Below, one piece after another: positions 7,147 through 19,636 of a DNA stretch of 64,000 bases. Under the pieces are notes generated by a model, which ran no database searches, had not been told where the DNA came from, and saw only the letters and a list, made by a program, of their open reading frames with translations. The stretch is from NCBI GenBank assembly GCA_958295465.1, contig OY282353.1, positions 2,595,001-2,659,000 of the forward strand. The letters run 5' to 3'. Each line of letters begins with the position of its first letter. Position 1 is the first letter of the stretch. The position numbers and the translations under genes were made by a program. The stretch is from an uncultured Gammaproteobacteria bacterium. Lineage in GTDB: Bacteria; Pseudomonadota; Gammaproteobacteria; HK1.

Positions 7147-8394
7147 TCAAGCGCCCCTCGACGCGCCGGCCGGCGGCTTGTCGCCGGCGGATTCGATCAC
7201 GCCGCCGCCGAGGCATTCGTCACCGTCGTAGAGCACCGCGTACTGGCCGGGCGCCGCCGCCCACTGCGGTTGCTCGAAGCGGAGATCGAGGGCGTCCCCG
7301 TCCTCGCCGGGCCGGACCGTGCACGCCTGATCCGCCTGCCGGTACCGGATCTTTGCGTGGCAACGCAGCGGCAGCGGGGGAGCGGCGCCGGCGATCCAGC
7401 GCACGTCGCGTACCCGCAGCCGGCGTGACAGCAACGCGGGATGATCGTGCCCCTGGACGACGATCAGGGCGTTGCGCGCGTGGTCCTTCGCCGCCACGTA
7501 CCACGGGGCCTGTGCGCCGTCATGCCGGCCTCCGATGCCCAGACCCTTGCGCTGGCCGATGGTGAAGAACGCCAGTCCCCGGTGCTCGCCGACGCGAACC
7601 CCGGTCCCGGTCTCGATCGGTCCGGGCGACTCGGTGACGAAGCGGGCGAGGAACGGCGCGAACCGGCGTTCGCCGACGAAGCACAGACCGGTGCTGTCGC
7701 GCTTGTCGTGCGGCGCCAGGCCCGCGCGCCGGGCTATCGCACGCACCTCGCGCTTGTGGAGGTCCCCGAGAGGGAAGACCGCCTGCCCAAGTTGGGTCCG
7801 GTCGAGCGCGTGAAGGAAATAGCTCTGATCCTTGGCGGGATCGGCGCCCTTGAACAGCCGCGGGCCGTCGCCGGCCTGTTCGACCCTCGCGTAGTGGCCG
7901 GTCGCGATGCGTTCGGCACCGAGCCGGCGCGCGTGCTCGGCGAACGCGCTGAACTTCACCTTCCGGTTGCACAGCACGTCGGGGTTCGGGGTCAGGCCGC
8001 CTTCGAGCCCGCGGATGAAGCGCACGAAGACGTCGTTCCAATAGGCGTCGGAACAGTTCACGGCGTGCAGGGGAATGCCGAGCCGGTCGCATACACGTTG
8101 CGCGTCGGCGAAGTCCTCGGCCGCCGCGCAGTAGCCACCCTGATCGTCCTCCTCCCAGTTCTTCATGAACATCGCCTGTACCGGGACGCCCGCTTCGACA
8201 AGGCGCATCAGCGCGACCGCGGAATCGACGCCGCCGGACAGCGCGACCATCGTCGGCGCGGCGTCGACCGCGCGCGGGGGCGGAGTGGCGGGTCCAGCCA
8301 CGTTGCGCCTGCGATGGACCGGCGTTGCCCGTGTGCGGGGCGAGTCGGCGGGGAGGGGGGTCGCGGAGCGCATCGGGTACCGGGTCGAGTGCAC
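7147..8394 (-). CDS. mnmA: tRNA-specific 2-thiouridylase MnmA
   Basis: ATP-dependent enzyme that thiolates U34 of tRNA-Lys, -Glu and -Gln. The PP-loop SGGVDSAVA is near residues 53-61. The catalytic nucleophile Cys is in NPDVLCNRKVKF and the persulfide Cys in STGLCFVGERRF. The C-terminal domain includes APGQYAVLYDGDECLGGGVI. The N-terminus has about 46 poorly conserved residues before the PP-loop. The true start may be the ATG at 8373 or an intermediate codon, and no convincing ribosome-binding site decides it. Confidence 0.92.
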   Translation of the reverse strand: MHSTRYPMRSATPLPADSPRTRATPVHRRRNVAGPATPPPRAVDAAPTMVALSGGVDSAVALMRLVEAGVPVQAMFMKNWEEDDQGGYCAAAEDFADAQRVCDRLGIPLHAVNCSDAYWNDVFVRFIRGLEGGLTPNPDVLCNRKVKFSAFAEHARRLGAERIATGHYARVEQAGDGPRLFKGADPAKDQSYFLHALDRTQLGQAVFPLGDLHKREVRAIARRAGLAPHDKRDSTGLCFVGERRFAPFLARFVTESPGPIETGTGVRVGEHRGLAFFTIGQRKGLGIGGRHDGAQAPWYVAAKDHARNALIVVQGHDHPALLSRRLRVRDVRWIAGAAPPLPLRCHAKIRYRQADQACTVRPGEDGDALDLRFEQPQWAAAPGQYAVLYDGDECLGGGVIESAGDKPPAGASRGA

Positions 8395-11908: not shown

Positions 11909-13684
11909 TTACCCCCCTGGTGTGTCGAGCACGCGGATCTTCAGCTCTCGAAGCTGTCGGGGCTCGGCGAAACCGGGCGCGCCGGTGAGCGGGTCGTTCG
12001 CGGTCTGGGTTTTGGGGAAGGCGATGACGTCGCGGATCGAGCTCGATCCGGTCATCAGCATCGCAATCCGGTCGAGCCCGAACGCGATCCCGCCGTGGGG
12101 CGGACAACCGAACTCCAGCGCATCGAGGAGGAACCCGAACTTCTCGCGCGCCTCGTCCTCGCCAATGCCGAGCACCCGAAACACCGCCTGCTGGATCTCA
12201 CGACGGTGAATGCGCACCGATCCACCGCCGATCTCCGAGCCGTTGAGCACCATGTCGTACGCGCGCGACTTCAGGGCGGCGGGATTCGATTCGATGGCGG
12301 CGAGGTCTTCCGTATCCGGCGCGGTGAACGGATGGTGGAGCGCGGAATGACGCCTCTCGCGGGGGTCCCACTCGAACATCGGGAAGTCGACCACCCATGA
12401 CACGCGCCAGCCGTCCTCGACGAGGCCCAGATCCTCGCCGAGCTTCACCCGGAGCGCTCCGAGCGCATCGTTGACGATCTTCGACGCATCCGCACCGAAG
12501 AATACGAGGTCGCCGTCCCTGGCGGCGGTTCGCTCCATGATTCCTTGCAGCGCATCGTCGGAGAGGAACTTGACGATGGGCGATTGCAGCCCGCCCCGTC
12601 CCGCGGCGAGGTCGTTCACCTTGATGTAGGCAAGCCCCTTCGCGCCGTAAGTCCCGACGAAACGGGTGTAGTCGTCTATCCCCGAGCGGGGCAGCCCGCC
12701 CGCGCCCGGCGCCTTGAGCGCGGCCACCCGGGCGCCGGGATCGCTGGCCGGCCCGGCGAAGACCTTGAACTCCGCATCCGCGACGAGATCGCCCACCTCC
12801 ACCAGCTCCAGCGGGTTGCGCAGATCGGGCCGATCGGTGCCGAAGCGCGCCATCGCCTCCTCGCAGGTCATGCGGGGGAAGGGGTCCGGCAGCGCGACGC
12901 CGAGCACGCGCTCGAAGACGTGGCGCATCAGCGATTCCATGAGCCCGGTGATGCCGTCGAGATCGAGGAACGAGGTCTCGACGTCGAGCTGGGTGAACTC
13001 CGGCTGCCGGTCCGCGCGCAGGTCCTCGTCGCGGAAGCAGCGCACGATCTGGTAGTAGCGCTCGAACCCCGACATCATCAGGAGTTGCTTGAAGATCTGG
13101 GGCGACTGCGGCAGCGCGAAGAAATGGCCGGGGTGGGTGCGGCTCGGCACGAGGTAGTCGCGCGCGCCTTCCGGCGTCGCCTTCGTGAGCATCGGGGTCT
13201 CGACGTCGATGAAGCCTTCGGCGTCGAGGAACTCCCGCATCGCGCGGGTGATGCGCGCCCGGGTCTCGATTCGCGCGAACATCTCCGGGCGGCGCAGATC
13301 GACGTAGCGGTACCGGAGCCGCGTTTCCTCTCCGACGTCGGCCTCGTCGAGCTGGAACGGGGGGGGCCGCGCGGGGTTCAGGACCTCGAGGCTCTGCCCG
13401 AGGACCTCGACCGCGCCGGTCACCATCTCGGGGTTGAGGGTCCCCGGCGGCCGCTCGCGCACACGGCCCACGGCACGCAGCACGTACTCCGGACGCACCT
13501 GCTCGGCGGTATCGAACGCCTCCACGGTATCGGGGTCGTACACCACCTGCACGAGTCCGGTGCGGTCGCGCAGATCGATGAATATCACCCCTCCGTGATC
13601 GCGACGCCGATGCACCCAGCCACAGAGCGTCACGCTCTCGCCGACGAGATCCTCGGTGACGGTGCCGCAGAAATGGGAACGCAT
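11909..13684 (-). CDS. aspS: Aspartyl-tRNA synthetase (probably Asp/Asn non-discriminating)
   Basis: Class IIb synthetase, 591 residues, bacterial type. It has an OB-fold anticodon domain (about 1-110), class II motif 2 ([18 protein letters not shown]), the bacterial GAD insertion (about 290-420), and motif 3 ([11 protein letters not shown]) near 535. Residue 30 is His (RRRDHGG) and a Gly follows RERPP near residue 81. These match the His31 and Gly82 reported to relax tRNA specificity in Pseudomonas aeruginosa AspRS, so this enzyme probably charges both tRNA-Asp and tRNA-Asn and needs GatCAB. fmdB, a usual aspS neighbour, lies 3.7 kb away across inserted genes. Confidence 0.95.
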
Positions 13685-13946: not shown

Positions 13947-14004
13947 GCGAAGCTGAGAGTGGTATCCTGACGTCGGAATTCAACTCGATGTGGAGGACAT
14001 TGGA

Positions 14005-14652
14005 ATGAGTCTGGCTCAAAAGCTCGACGCCATCCGCGAAGCGGGGGCAAAACGGATTCCGGCGGAGAAGCGTGCGGTGATGGGCGCGGCCACGCGGGCG
14101 TTGCGTGAATCGGGCATTGCGGACGGCTTCATCAAGGTGGGCGACCCTCTCCCCGAGTTCGCGCTCCGGAGCGCTCGGGGTCAAGTGGTGCGTTCAGCGG
14201 ATCTGCTCAATCGAGGCGCGGTGGTCCTTACCGTATTCCGCGGCCACTGGTGACCCTACTGCAATGCAGAGCTGTACGCTTTGCAGGCAGTCGTACCGGA
14301 ATTGGAGAAGCTCGGCGCGAGCCTCGTTGCCTTCACGCCGCATAAGGCCGCGAAGAGCCTTCAGATGATCGAGCGGCACAAGCTCGGCTTCGAGATGTTG
14401 TCCGATCCCGGAAATGCATATGCCGCGCGACTGGGGCTGCGCTTCCAGGTTCCGGATGAGTTGAAGGAGAGCTACCTGAGCCTCGGGATCGATCTCGAGG
14501 AGTCGAGCGGCTCTCCGGACTGGACGCTGCCGGTGCCGGCTAGAATCGTCACCGACCGAACCGGGGTGGTTCGGGCGACCGACATCGACGTGGACTACAC
14601 CCGCCGTCCGGAGCCCGAGAAGACGATCGCGGACGTGGCGGCACTCGCGTGA
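14005..14652 (+). CDS. Peroxiredoxin-like selenoprotein candidate (in-frame UGA, U83)
   Basis: AhpC/TSA-like thioredoxin-fold protein. A frame of 216 codons is interrupted only by TGA at 14251-14253, exactly where family members have the first Cys of WCPYC (VFRGHW-UGA-PYCNAEL). Reading UGA as selenocysteine gives a 215-residue protein with Sec at 83 in a UxxC redox motif, and everything on both sides aligns with the family (SDPGNAYAARLGL, LPVPARIVTD, DYTRRPEPE). The start ATG has GGAGG 8 bases upstream. A hairpin with bacterial SECIS geometry begins 11 nt after the UGA. The expected role is thiol or peroxide reduction in the cytoplasm. The alternative is a recent nonsense mutation. No selA/B/C/D is in the window. 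Confidence 0.8.
14265..14285 (+). promoter_or_regulatory. Bacterial SECIS-like hairpin
   Basis: Within the peroxiredoxin-like gene, 14265-14272 pairs with 14278-14285 to give an 8-bp stem with one G-U wobble (UGCAGAGC with GCUUUGCA), closed by the 5-nt loop UGUAC with G at the second position. The stem starts 11 nt after the UGA, the spacing known for E. coli fdhF. Such hairpins bind SelB to place Sec-tRNA at the ribosome. Function is inferred. Confidence 0.65.
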
Positions 14653-14733: not shown

Positions 14734-15198
14734 TTACTCGCGCTCCATCCGCCGGAACTCACGGTTGAGGCGGAACTCCTCCGAGGCGACGAACTCCTCG
14801 ATGGCGCGAGCGCGGCGCTCGATCCTCTCGAATCGCCGGGAGAGGGCGTCGGGGTCGATCGTCGGACGTGATGGCTCTTGTGGCTCGCGGCCCGGACCGC
14901 CGCTGCTTCCTCGTCGCCCCGGACCCGAAGCGACGCGCCGGAGTCGGTCTGCCGCCCGCTTGAGGGAATCATGTGCGGCACCCATCCGGCGACGCGTGCG
15001 CTCGGGGTGGTCCACCCAGTACAGCGCGGCGAGGAACACGAGGAGGGTCAGCAGCGGAGCAAAGACGAACCCGAGTACGAATCCGGCGATGACCACGCCG
15101 CGCGGGATGTCGAAAGCGTCGGCCAGACCTCGTATCACACGTTTGATCGGCCCCCGGCGGCGGCCGGACCTCCGGCCATGAGAGTGACGGCGGCTCAT
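14734..15198 (-). CDS. pspC: PspC-domain phage-shock membrane protein
   Basis: Third gene of a psp operon, 154 residues. The N-terminus is basic (MSRRHSHGRRSGRRRG), followed by the PspC core IRGLADAFDIPRGVV and one or two membrane segments (about 33-62). A charged, helix-rich tail to the end could form a coiled coil. The tail is longer than in E. coli PspC. The ATG at 15198 overlaps the pspB stop as ATGA, so this start is preferred over one four codons upstream. PspC senses envelope stress and recruits PspA. Confidence 0.8.
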   Translation of the reverse strand: MSRRHSHGRRSGRRRGPIKRVIRGLADAFDIPRGVVIAGFVLGFVFAPLLTLLVFLAALYWVDHPERTRRRMGAAHDSLKRAADRLRRVASGPGRRGSSGGPGREPQEPSRPTIDPDALSRRFERIERRARAIEEFVASEEFRLNREFRRMERE

Positions 15199-15449
15199 CG
15201 TGTTCTCCACTCGGGTGCTTCCGCATCGAGGATCGTCTCCAGGGATTCGATCCGTTGCTCGAGCTGCTCACCGAGCCTGCGCATCCGTTCGAGCTCCGCG
15301 CGTTCGATCACGACCCTGCCGGGGCTGGCGGCCCCGGCCCGCAGGCGCATCCACACGGTGATGTAGTGATACGTTATCCAGAGGGGAACGATGAAGACGA
15401 CGAAGATGATTCCGGGCACCGCCAGCGCCCACGGAAAGGTCATGTCCAT
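15195..15449 (-). CDS. pspB: Phage shock protein B
   Basis: Small inner-membrane protein of 84 residues. One N-terminal membrane helix (ALAVPGIIFVVFIVPLWITYHY) leads to a cytoplasmic coiled coil (ELERMRRLGEQLEQRIESLETIL) and ends DAEAPEWR, as PspB does. The ATG at 15449 has CGGAG about 7 bases upstream. PspB works with PspC to relieve PspA inhibition of PspF. Confidence 0.88.
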   Translation of the reverse strand: MDMTFPWALAVPGIIFVVFIVPLWITYHYITVWMRLRAGAASPGRVVIERAELERMRRLGEQLEQRIESLETILDAEAPEWRTR

Positions 15450-15498
15450 TGTGATCTCCGCGTGTAGTCGACGATTCGCGTGAAGGTCACACCGCGCA

Positions 15499-16170
15499 TC
15501 AATCACGACCCTCCGCCGCGACCCGCGCCTTGAGCCGGGCGAGATCCTCGGCGATGTCGGCCTCGACCTCCAACTCGGCGAATTCCTGCTCCAGCGTCTG
15601 CGCCTTGCCCATATCGTAGACCTCGGCGCCCGCGTCCAACTCGTCGATCCGGCGCTCGAGAGATCCGTACCGCTTCAGCGCGTCCTCGACGCGGTCATCG
15701 TGCAACGCGCGTCTCACGCGGACGCGGCCCTTCGCGGTCTTCATCCGCAGCTCGATGGAGGACTTGCGCGCCTTGGCTTCGTCGATCTTCGCTTGCAGCT
15801 TGGCGAGGTCCTCGTTGTGGCGGGCCAGGCTGCCATTGACGAGCACGAGCTCCTCGCGCAGCAGCGTGGCCTGATCCTCGAGCTTGCGCTTGACCACCAG
15901 CGCGCTCCTGGCGAGATCCTCACGGCCCTTGCCGAGCGCGAACGCCGCCTTGTCCTCCCACTCCCGCCCGTTGGTCTCCAGACGTTCGAGCTTGCGTTCG
16001 ATCTCGCGCCTGTCGGCGATGGCCCGCACCGATTGGGAACGCACCTCGACCAGGGTGTCCTCCATCTCCTGGATCATGAGCCGGATCATCTTCTCCGGAT
16101 CCTCGGCGCGTTCGAGCAAGGCGTTGATGTTCGCGTTGATGATGTCGGTGATGCGCGAAAAAATGGTCAT
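15499..16170 (-). CDS. pspA: Phage shock protein A
   Basis: Peripheral membrane ESCRT-III-like protein that stabilises damaged inner membrane and inhibits PspF. It has 223 residues, the normal size, starting MTIFSRITDIINANINALLERAED-type (amphipathic helix) and almost entirely coiled coil. AGGAGG 9 bases before the ATG at 16170 fixes the start, although the frame is open upstream. The gene is divergent from pspF and preceded by a sigma-54 promoter. Confidence 0.93.
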   Translation of the reverse strand: MTIFSRITDIINANINALLERAEDPEKMIRLMIQEMEDTLVEVRSQSVRAIADRREIERKLERLETNGREWEDKAAFALGKGREDLARSALVVKRKLEDQATLLREELVLVNGSLARHNEDLAKLQAKIDEAKARKSSIELRMKTAKGRVRVRRALHDDRVEDALKRYGSLERRIDELDAGAEVYDMGKAQTLEQEFAELEVEADIAEDLARLKARVAAEGRD

Positions 16171-16218
16171 GGCGGTCGGCCTCCTGGTTGTCGAAAGGGG
16201 AATTGCAGACGCGCCGAT

Positions 16219-16234
16219 TGCGAACGGCGTGCCA
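16219..16234 (-). promoter_or_regulatory. Sigma-54 promoter of pspABC
   Basis: On the minus strand the sequence TGGCACGCCGTTCGCA fits the -24/-12 consensus TGGCACG-N4-TTGCW with one mismatch and keeps the invariant GG and GC dinucleotides at the right distance. It lies about 50 bases before the pspA start in the pspA-pspF divergent region. PspF would bind further upstream, in the region that also holds the pspF promoter. Confidence 0.75.
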
Positions 16235-16342
16235 ACCCGCAAGTCGTTGATCTCTCGCGATACGAGACGGATCGATCCGGGGGTTAGCGAATCCAAATCG
16301 CAAAAATCGCCACAAATAGGCGAATTCCCGTATCATTGGACA

Positions 16343-17374
16343 ATGGCCGATCCACCATCAATCCTCGGTGAAGACCCCGCCTTCCTGGAAGTCGAGGAGC
16401 AGATCTCCCGCCTCGCGGCCATCGACCGACCGTGTCTCGTGATCGGTGAGCGAGGCACCGGCAAGGAGTTGCTCGCGACCCGCCTGCACTACCTCTCGCC
16501 CCGTTGGGACGGCCCGCTCGTCAAGGTCAACTGCGCCGCGCTCGCCGAGTCGCTGCTCGACACGGAGCTCTTCGGTCACGAAGCGGGGGCATTCACCGGC
16601 GCACAGCGCCAGCACGTGGGCCGCTTCGAGCGTGCGGACGGCGGAACCCTGCTGCTGGACGAAATTGCGAGTGCTTCGGCCGCGGTGCAGGAAAAGGTGC
16701 TCCGGGTCATCGAGTACGGCGAGATGGAGAGGGTCGGCGGGCGCCGGACCATTCGGCTCGACGTGCGGGTGGTCGGTGCGGCGAACGTCGATCTGCCGTC
16801 GCTCGCCCGAGGTGGGGCGTTCCGTGCCGATCTGCTTGACCGGCTCGCATTCGAGGTGGTGACGATACCGCCGCTTCGCGCCCGGCCGGCGGACGTCATG
16901 ACCCTCGCGAATGCGTTCGCCCTGGAGATCACCCGCGCCCTGGGCAAGGACGTCTTCCCCGGGTTCAGCCCCCGCGCGGAGGGGCTGCTGCTCGGATACT
17001 CGTGGCCGGGAAACGTGCGGGAGTTGAAGAACGTCGTCGAGCGGGCGGTCTATCGCTCAGCGTCATCCGATGCACCGATCGACACGGTGGTCATCGATCC
17101 TTTCGACAACCCGTGGCGTCCTCTTCCGGAATCAGCCGGCGCCGATGCCGGCCGCCGGGTGTCCACCGGGCGGGCAGAGACCTCCGAGCCCGCCGGGCCC
17201 CCCCTGCCTGCCGGCGCTCCGGGCGACTTCATGGCCGAGGTCGCACGATTCGAGCGCGGCCTGCTTGAACGCGCACTCAACGAGGCCCGGCACAATCAGG
17301 GCGATACCGCACGTGCCCTGGGGCTCGGGTACCACCAACTCAGAAGACTGCTGAAGAAGCACGCCCTCATCTGA
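16343..17374 (+). CDS. pspF: Sigma-54 activator PspF
   Basis: Bacterial enhancer-binding protein that activates pspABC with sigma-54 RNA polymerase. It has 343 residues with no N-terminal receiver domain, as expected for PspF. The AAA+ domain spans about 8-240. Motifs are Walker A (GERGTGKE), the sigma-54-contact loop GAFTGAQ, Walker B (GGTLLLDEI) and the arginine region (FRADLLDRL). A Pro-rich linker leads to a C-terminal Fis-type helix-turn-helix (NQGDTARALGLGYHQLRRLLKK). The ATG is chosen because the protein then starts at the AAA+ domain like E. coli PspF. Confidence 0.92.
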   Translation: MADPPSILGEDPAFLEVEEQISRLAAIDRPCLVIGERGTGKELLATRLHYLSPRWDGPLVKVNCAALAESLLDTELFGHEAGAFTGAQRQHVGRFERADGGTLLLDEIASASAAVQEKVLRVIEYGEMERVGGRRTIRLDVRVVGAANVDLPSLARGGAFRADLLDRLAFEVVTIPPLRARPADVMTLANAFALEITRALGKDVFPGFSPRAEGLLLGYSWPGNVRELKNVVERAVYRSASSDAPIDTVVIDPFDNPWRPLPESAGADAGRRVSTGRAETSEPAGPPLPAGAPGDFMAEVARFERGLLERALNEARHNQGDTARALGLGYHQLRRLLKKHALI

Positions 17375-17861: not shown

Positions 17862-18794
17862 TCATCTTCGCGACCCTCGCCGGTCGGATCCGTCGGCGAG
17901 CGATCGCAGTCCCATGACCGCCTGCGCGATCACCGCCGAGAGCACGATGCCGCCTCCCGCCAGGGTGAGCAGGGCGGGGACCTCGCCGACGCCGACCCAC
18001 ACCCAGATGGGCGCGAGCACGATCTCCGTCAACGACAGCAGCGCGACCTCGGCGGCGGGAAGGTAGCGCGCCCCCAGGGTGATGAGCACGAACCCGCCCG
18101 CGTACTGGAAGACTCCGAGAAACAGGCAGAGCGCAAGATCGTGGCGAGAGAGGACGAGGCTGTCCGACATCGCCAGTCCGAGCCCCGCCCCGATGAGACC
18201 GGCGAGGCAGATGGAGGGAATCATGTCGCGGTCACCCGCGCGGCGAAGCGTCACGAGCATGATCGCGAAGCCCACCGGGGTGCCGAGCGCGACGATGTTG
18301 CCGAGCAGCCGCCCGCTCTGGATCCCGTTGAAGATCATGATCGAGATGCCGGCGAGCGCGATCGTCATCGTGATCCACGTCGCCGCCCCGACCCGCTCGC
18401 GCAGCACGATCCAGCCCAGAACGGCGGCCATGAACGGGGCGGAGCTGATGAGGAAGAGCGCGTTCGCGACCGTGGTCAGCAACAGTGCGAACACGTAGCA
18501 CGCCGATCCGAGTCCGAGGCTCAGTGCGACGACGAGGCCGGGCCTTCCCACTGCGACGAACGCGCGAACCGTGCGAGCGCGATAGCGGAACGCGACATAG
18601 AGGGCGAGCACGATGGAGAACGCCAAGGAGCGATAGAAGAGGATCTGCCCGCCACTCGCCGTTTCCATGTGACGCAGCGTGATCCCCGCCACGCTGAGCA
18701 CCACCCCCGCGATGAGCACGAGCGCGACGCCGGTCGCATGGCGTCGATGGCGGATACGCGCCGCCGGGGCGTGCGTATCGTTCGATGGAGTCAC
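17862..18794 (-). CDS. DMT superfamily (EamA) transporter
   Basis: Inner-membrane drug/metabolite exporter, 310 residues with about ten hydrophobic segments and two EamA repeats. Internal marks are GGQILFYRSLAFS in helix 2 and VALLSLTEIVLAPIWVWVGVGE in the second repeat. A similar protein is at 32345-33259. Substrate unknown. It diverges from the glutaredoxin gene with about 210 bases between. Confidence 0.85.
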   Translation of the reverse strand: MTPSNDTHAPAARIRHRRHATGVALVLIAGVVLSVAGITLRHMETASGGQILFYRSLAFSIVLALYVAFRYRARTVRAFVAVGRPGLVVALSLGLGSACYVFALLLTTVANALFLISSAPFMAAVLGWIVLRERVGAATWITMTIALAGISIMIFNGIQSGRLLGNIVALGTPVGFAIMLVTLRRAGDRDMIPSICLAGLIGAGLGLAMSDSLVLSRHDLALCLFLGVFQYAGGFVLITLGARYLPAAEVALLSLTEIVLAPIWVWVGVGEVPALLTLAGGGIVLSAVIAQAVMGLRSLADGSDRRGSRR

Positions 18795-19006
18795 CCGGGA
18801 ACGCTCGGCGGAACGTGATTGGCGCGGGCGATGCGTCGGGGCGATTCGATGATCCGTCGCCCGACGACCCTATGCGCGATCGGCAAGAGCAATGCGCAGG
18901 CGAGATCCGCTCGACGCTCGCAGCAGCGTGGGCTCGAATCCGATTGACGCCTTTCGGTGCACGGGCTTACTTTTGCAACATCGGAGACAAGTACCGGAGA
19001 GGTGCG

Positions 19007-19636
19007 ATGACGACGCAAGCGGTGCGGCTGACCCTGTACCGGTGGGCGGGCCGGTGGGGGCCGTTCAGGGTCAACATTCCCTGCGGTGAATGCTCCCTCA
19101 CCGTGGACGTCATCAACGACACCCTCGCCAACGAGCTCGACGGCATCCCGGTCGAGGTCGATGTCCGGGAATGGCTGACCGAGTGGTGGAAACCTCTTCC
19201 GAAAGGCGGCTGGCATGCACCGATCGTGATGGTCGAAAGCAAGGTGGTGAGCCAGGGGCATGCGCTGAACCGCGGAGTCCTCACCGAGGCGATCATCGCC
19301 GCGCACGTGGAGCGCGCCGGGGTGTCCGGCAACCATCTCTACGGCAAGGCGACCTGCCCGCATTGCGCGCGGGCGAAGGGGTATTTCGCCGAAGCCGACA
19401 TCGATTACGTGTATCACGACGTGGTCAAGGACCCGCGCGCCCTCTACGAGATGATCGGCAGGGTCAAGCCCATCGTCGGGCCGAAGACCCCGATCACCGT
19501 TCCCCAGATCTGGATCGACGGAAAGTATATGGGAGGCGCCGACCAGCTCGGCCGGTTCCTGGGGCTGCACGTCGAGCCGAATCCCGAGCGCGGCCAGAAC
19601 TCCATGACCGCGAAGCCGAATCTGGCGAGTTCCTGA
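19007..19636 (+). CDS. Glutaredoxin-domain redox protein
   Basis: 209 residues in two halves. Residues 1-115 contain an IPCGECSLT motif in a possible thioredoxin-like fold. Residues 116-200 are a glutaredoxin with active site CPHC (LYGKATCPHCARAKGYF), the cis-Pro VPQIWIDG, and the GGADQLGRF glutathione-binding end. GGAGAGGTG before the ATG supports the start, though the frame is open upstream. Natural partner unknown. The gene converges on ilvE across a hairpin. Confidence 0.82.
   Translation: MTTQAVRLTLYRWAGRWGPFRVNIPCGECSLTVDVINDTLANELDGIPVEVDVREWLTEWWKPLPKGGWHAPIVMVESKVVSQGHALNRGVLTEAIIAAHVERAGVSGNHLYGKATCPHCARAKGYFAEADIDYVYHDVVKDPRALYEMIGRVKPIVGPKTPITVPQIWIDGKYMGGADQLGRFLGLHVEPNPERGQNSMTAKPNLASS

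Follow-up and report, generated by a model that had tools for sequence, protein, structure and literature searches.

An interrupted peroxiredoxin-like gene of an uncultured gammaproteobacterium is strongly supported as a selenoprotein gene with a UxxC active site

Results

A single in-frame TGA lies at the active-site motif of a peroxiredoxin-like gene

The window analysed here is a stretch of 64,000 nucleotides from the genome of an uncultured Gammaproteobacteria bacterium (assembly GCA_958295465.1, contig OY282353.1, positions 2,595,001 to 2,659,000). Between aspS and a psp cluster, its forward strand carries a peroxiredoxin-like frame that runs from an ATG at 14005-14007 to a final TGA at 14650-14652. 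The features at the locus are as follows:

11909-13684, minus strand: aspS
13992-13996, plus strand: ribosome-binding site GGAGG, 8 nt 5′ of the ATG, from the sequence
14005-14652, plus strand: CDS of a peroxiredoxin-like (AhpC/TSA, PF00578) selenoprotein, 215 residues plus stop if TGA 83 is read as Sec
14251-14253, plus strand: TGA of residue 83, the putative selenocysteine codon, first position of U-P-Y-C
14260-14262, plus strand: TGC of the partner Cys86, aligned to the PrxQ/Bcp peroxidatic Cys and to the second Cys of the thioredoxin-type CxxC
14265-14285, plus strand: bacterial SECIS-type hairpin, 8-bp stem and 5-nt loop UGUAC with G at loop position 2, the loop 19 nt after the UGA
15195-15506, minus strand: pspB
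15499-16224, minus strand: pspA

Codon 83 is the sole stop inside the frame. A preliminary description of this DNA had spoken of a 216-codon frame closed only by one TGA; the single internal stop stood, while the count has to be read as including the final stop codon. The homologue alignment placed this TGA at the first Cys position of the W-C-P-Y-C motif of the family, as had been proposed, and the flanks proved free of other damage, with no further in-frame stop. The read-through protein matched the Pfam AhpC-TSA family at 80 bits (gathering cut-off 26) and also matched Redoxin. In the NCBIfam profile search none of the models reached its cut-off, and membership in the SelL-related, ResA, PrxQ and Bcp families was rejected on score.

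Mechanical ORF calling splits the gene into 13990-14253 and 14281-14652, as if the locus encoded two proteins, an N-terminal peptide of 82 residues and a C-terminal piece starting from an internal TTG at 14281. Such a split would, however, cut through one thioredoxin fold at the active site of the predicted structure, and would leave out residues 83-92, which rank among the best-conserved positions in the family. We consider two separate proteins extremely unlikely.

The genome encodes the complete selenocysteine machinery

A search of the genome for selA, selB, selC and selD had been suggested as a check, and all four were present above the curated cut-offs in the single 5.68 Mb contig. In the coordinates of this contig they are:

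184722-186062: selA, 574 bits (cut-off 268)
from 186098: selB, 403 bits (cut-off 242)
188267: tRNA-Sec (selC), anticodon TCA, directly after selB
1640262-1641215: selD, 292 bits (cut-off 125)

At its 3′ end the selB frame runs about 48 nt into the tRNA-Sec gene (L010:6099-8315 and 8268-8363; the two together at about 186098-188362 of the contig, G000:C1), and selC genes embedded in or overlapping selB have been described for Alpha- and Gammaproteobacteria (PMC13188914). The selD match lies at the C-terminal end of a long frame (L020:1390-3924, minus strand), the N-terminal part of which resembles the Ndh-SelD fusion of one of the relatives (L046). The SelD part of this frame presents a CGGC motif, and CxxC is the motif of Ndh-SelD fusions at the corresponding site (PMC2398784). 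A second match to tRNA-Sec, at G000:C1:435404, was actually a tRNA-Ser with anticodon TGA.

The same TGA recurs in relatives and the codons on both sides of it are constrained

Besides the window genome, 12 others from the Gamma- and Alphaproteobacteria carried TGA at the position of codon 83, and the remaining homologues carried TGC or TGT. This is the outcome of a comparison of homologue codons that the preliminary description had also recommended. Three of the 12 belong to the same genus, two to another family of the class, six are Gamma- and Alphaproteobacteria that came from a genome-contig scan, and one (G511) is from the same phylum. In the genus, the relatives were 83-88% identical to the window protein; the other sequences that tblastn scored reached about 55-64%. 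The UxxC motif, second Cys included, was kept in every Sec copy. The relatives are mostly metagenome-assembled genomes. One Sec copy, from a contig titled as a Klebsiella pneumoniae MAG (L048, CAMCBY010000378.1), groups with MAGs of Gammaproteobacteria, and its species name looks doubtful. The genome G328 carries a second Sec copy (L150, G328:C87:91908-92321) in which the TGA and a 9-bp hairpin are kept and the frame is lost after about 138 residues; this is either a duplicate in decay or a fault of the assembly. Viral contigs yielded 38 pattern matches and no relatives among them, and carriage by phages was thus not indicated.

Because the window organism and most of its relatives are known solely from assembled genomes, a sequencing or assembly error could be invoked for the TGA. 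The codon nevertheless turned up independently in separate assemblies of 13 genomes, and even the relatives in the genus differ from the window gene at 35-48% of synonymous sites. This independent recurrence ruled out an error, the probability of which we regard as negligible.

The TGA co-occurred with selA. Every one of the 13 Sec genomes carried this gene, whereas just one did among the 18 whose homologue has Cys (Fisher p = 7e-8). The exception, G042, bears selA together with a Cys homologue; therefore, the Cys form can coexist with the Sec machinery. Some other members of the genus and the family (G001, G005, G006 and G012) carry selA and lack the Sec gene, and so presumably contain other selenoproteins.

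In a tree of 45 sequences the Sec forms clustered together. The main Sec clade comprised 12 Sec sequences (94/88), and a Cys sequence, L050, branched at its base; the Sec sequence L151 fell outside both, with support of 100/94 for all 14. L050, the nearest Cys relative, has TGC and no stem, and comes from a genome without selA. A reversion from Sec to Cys in L050 after the loss of the machinery would fit the absence of selA, while the tree itself is compatible with a change in either direction, Cys to Sec or Sec to Cys.

Between the window gene and those of the three relatives from the genus, dS was 0.47-0.76, and dN/dS within the genus was 0.10-0.26 on the 5′ side of the TGA and 0.13-0.17 on the 3′ side. 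The low ratio downstream of the TGA indicates that this part is translated and constrained as strongly as the upstream part. These values bear on whether the locus is a pseudogene, in which a nonsense mutation has turned the Cys codon of a normal peroxiredoxin-like gene into a stop. TGC or TGT, each one base away from TGA, is indeed the codon of most homologues. Against such a mutation, the same TGA is present in 13 genomes, dN/dS remains low 3′ of it across the relatives of the genus, the frame shows no further damage, the codons of the hairpin are conserved and selA accompanies the gene in all Sec genomes. A pseudogene was ruled out on the conservation of the TGA across genera and the purifying selection downstream, and we hold it to be very unlikely.

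A conserved SECIS-type hairpin follows the UGA

The hairpin at 14265-14285 has the sequence TGCAGAGC-TGTAC-GCTTTGCA and forms 8 bp, one G-U pair included. The stem starts 11 nt after the UGA and its bare energy is -10.2 kcal/mol. The published bacterial SECIS model (PMC13188914) allows a loop of 3-9 nt, a stem of 4-16 bp, a G in loop positions 1-2, a distance of 16-37 nt between UGA and loop, and an MFE of at most -7.5 kcal/mol, and the window hairpin agrees with it in every respect. Stem, loop and spacing had been given exactly in the preliminary description, and the hairpin check that it advised around 14240-14300 gave a structure within this model. An outer extension of 5 bp (14258-14262 with 14287-14291) was rejected as part of the SECIS, as it was not kept in relatives.

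To judge the hairpin against chance, the peptide was recoded at random with synonymous codons drawn according to the local usage. An uninterrupted stem of the SECIS model with E <= -7.5 kcal/mol appeared in 1.9% of these recodings, and a stem as stable as the observed one in 0.145%. By itself the hairpin stands out only moderately (z about -2), and it is the conservation in relatives that makes it convincing. Of the 14 Sec copies, which include the damaged second copy of G328, 13 satisfied the SECIS model, each with a spacing of 19 and a loop of 5 nt. Among the Cys copies, 14 of 121 satisfied it when hairpins were counted anywhere in the allowed range. The sole Sec copy that did not was that of L151, the most distant Sec relative, which has an uninterrupted stem of 4 bp (-3.6 kcal/mol) in a genome with selA.

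All 12 aligned Sec sequences form the seven inner pairs (columns 16-22 with 28-34), and just 53% of the stem cells pair in Cys homologues; as the Sec sequences are related, the stem cell counts do not represent independent events. All changes in the stem among Sec sequences were compatible with pairing (A-U to G-U, G-U to G-C), and covariation was one-sided only. The codons of AELYAL, which lie in the hairpin (residues 88-93), were identical at 0.76, compared to 0.45 at other invariant residues (permutation p = 1.6e-4). Across the 12 aligned Sec sequences Glu89 was always GAG, Leu90 always CTG and Ala92 always GCT, and the core of the SECIS in the W-U-P-Y-C clade was strongly invariant (GAGCUGUAYGCU). 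Since the protein alone does not require these invariant codons, selection acts on the RNA.

The TGA could also be read as an amino acid other than Sec, by recoding to Trp or Cys or by near-cognate readthrough, and readthrough of the TGA occurs in either case. However, TGA also ends the same gene normally, the genome holds the full Sec machinery, outside the Sec copies the position of codon 83 invariably encodes a catalytic Cys, and a hairpin of the SECIS type lies 3′ of the TGA. We consider such a reading exceedingly improbable. The preliminary description had held a random nonsense mutation together with this hairpin to be unlikely, and its reading of the locus was supported. The signs that the preliminary description had named as speaking against a selenoprotein, namely a genome without sel genes, or relatives with TGC, an unconserved hairpin and relaxed selection downstream, did not appear.

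The predicted structure places residues 83 and 86 at a thioredoxin-type active site

The predicted structure has a peroxiredoxin/thioredoxin fold (mean pLDDT 94.4), and its best matches in the PDB were PrxQ/Bcp and AhpE proteins. In this model U83-P-Y-C86 occupies a thioredoxin-type active site, and helix 84-94 has Sec83 at its N-terminus. When aligned to solved PrxQ proteins, Cys86 corresponds to the peroxidatic Cys and Sec83 to the Thr of TxxC; in the sequence alignment with proteins of the thioredoxin family such as 3hdc, positions 83 and 86 correspond to the CxxC pair.

Discussion

The frame, the conserved TGA, the hairpin, the Sec machinery, the purifying selection on both sides of the TGA and the class of the fold were established by computation. 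Altogether, the reading of 14005-14652 as a selenoprotein gene is strongly supported. We assign a probability of about 0.96 to its product being one peroxiredoxin-like selenoprotein of 215 residues with Sec at UGA 83. In the cell, SelA and SelD would provide Sec-tRNA and selenophosphate, and SelB charged with Sec-tRNA(Sec) would bind the hairpin just 3′ of UGA 83 in the same mRNA, upon which the ribosome would insert selenocysteine at this codon. Such an insertion is strongly supported by the genomic comparisons, from which we infer it. In the finished enzyme, the active-site helix would carry Sec83 at its N-terminus, and Cys86 would follow after one helical turn. An oxidised substrate would be reduced through a Sec83-Cys86 selenenylsulfide, which thioredoxin or glutathione/glutaredoxin would in turn re-reduce. 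Judging from the fold and the motif, the enzyme is most likely a selenothiol oxidoreductase/peroxidase of the thioredoxin type; by family resemblance, a disulfide or a peroxide as substrate and a reductant of the thioredoxin or glutaredoxin type are likely.

Prx-like selenoproteins had been said to be known from metagenome surveys, and the literature agrees. UxxC members were reported from the Sargasso Sea (22 genes; PMC1088965), from bacterial genome sequences, where Cys-to-Sec changes had occurred independently (PMC1794560), and from the GOS survey as 'Prx-like 1' (PF00578, UxxC, 225 genes; PMC2398784). A catalogue lists Prx-like thiol:disulfide oxidoreductase selenoproteins (PF00578, UxxC/UxxU, with WP_010940744.1 of Geobacter as example) and a 'peroxiredoxin-like family protein' of cd02970 with UxxS (example MDX2448127.1; Table 1, PMC13188914).

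The window protein resembles Prx-like 1 in having Sec first in a thioredoxin-type UxxC motif of PF00578, a bacterial SECIS and many Cys homologues (PMC1088965, PMC2398784, PMC13188914); the W-U-P-Y-C branch was compared to Prx-like 1 and WP_010940744.1 by features and description. It shares with the cd02970 selenoprotein the AhpC/TSA family and the Sec at the first motif position; unlike the UxxS of that entry, all W-U-P-Y-C copies are UxxC, a distinction drawn from the listed motif. Selenocysteine peroxiredoxin (Prx, TxxU) belongs to the same superfamily and has the same fold, but its Sec occupies the peroxidatic position, where the window protein has Cys86 and carries its Sec three residues earlier, at the Thr position. 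To the SelL-related redox proteins (NF040769) there was a weak match of 28.5 bits versus a curated cut-off of 120, and the window protein has no UxxU. Because the features of the PF00578 UxxC entry that can be tested are all found in it, the window protein is, on its sequence features, assigned to the known UxxC Prx-like kind, catalogued since 2005, as a new and well-supported member or branch, which is present in at least 13 genomes of proteobacteria. It is conceivable, though in our opinion rather unlikely, that the W-U-P-Y-C clade (13 genomes) constitutes a distinct subfamily which published tables and curated models have left within the generic UxxC Prx-like proteins; a role near selenium metabolism might then follow, given the invariant SECIS core and the position of the gene next to selABC and selD in one of the lineages.

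These results correct the annotation of a gene in a group of uncultured proteobacteria, in which ordinary calling splits the enzyme in two. They also offer a clean case of Cys/Sec exchange, made up of a Sec clade, a Cys relative without hairpin and machinery, and a selA-bearing Cys genome (G042). The known picture of selenocysteine decoding is unchanged.

No functional partner was suggested by the neighbourhood in the window, and none was consistent among relatives except in L046. In that lineage (L046:3-5896) the order is selA, selB, tRNA-Sec, the Sec Prx-like gene and then a converging gene for an Ndh-SelD fusion, a cluster that ties the Sec Prx-like gene to the use of selenium in at least one lineage. 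In the window, the psp cluster directly downstream (14734-17371) contains, in addition to pspB and pspA, a probable pspC on the minus strand and a divergent sigma-54 activator on the plus strand. About 4 kb from the Sec gene, at 18785-19636, lies a gene for a protein whose residues 185-248 form a glutaredoxin domain (PF00462) and whose N-terminal part is not of the glutaredoxin type; this protein is a possible candidate for the reductant of the Sec enzyme.
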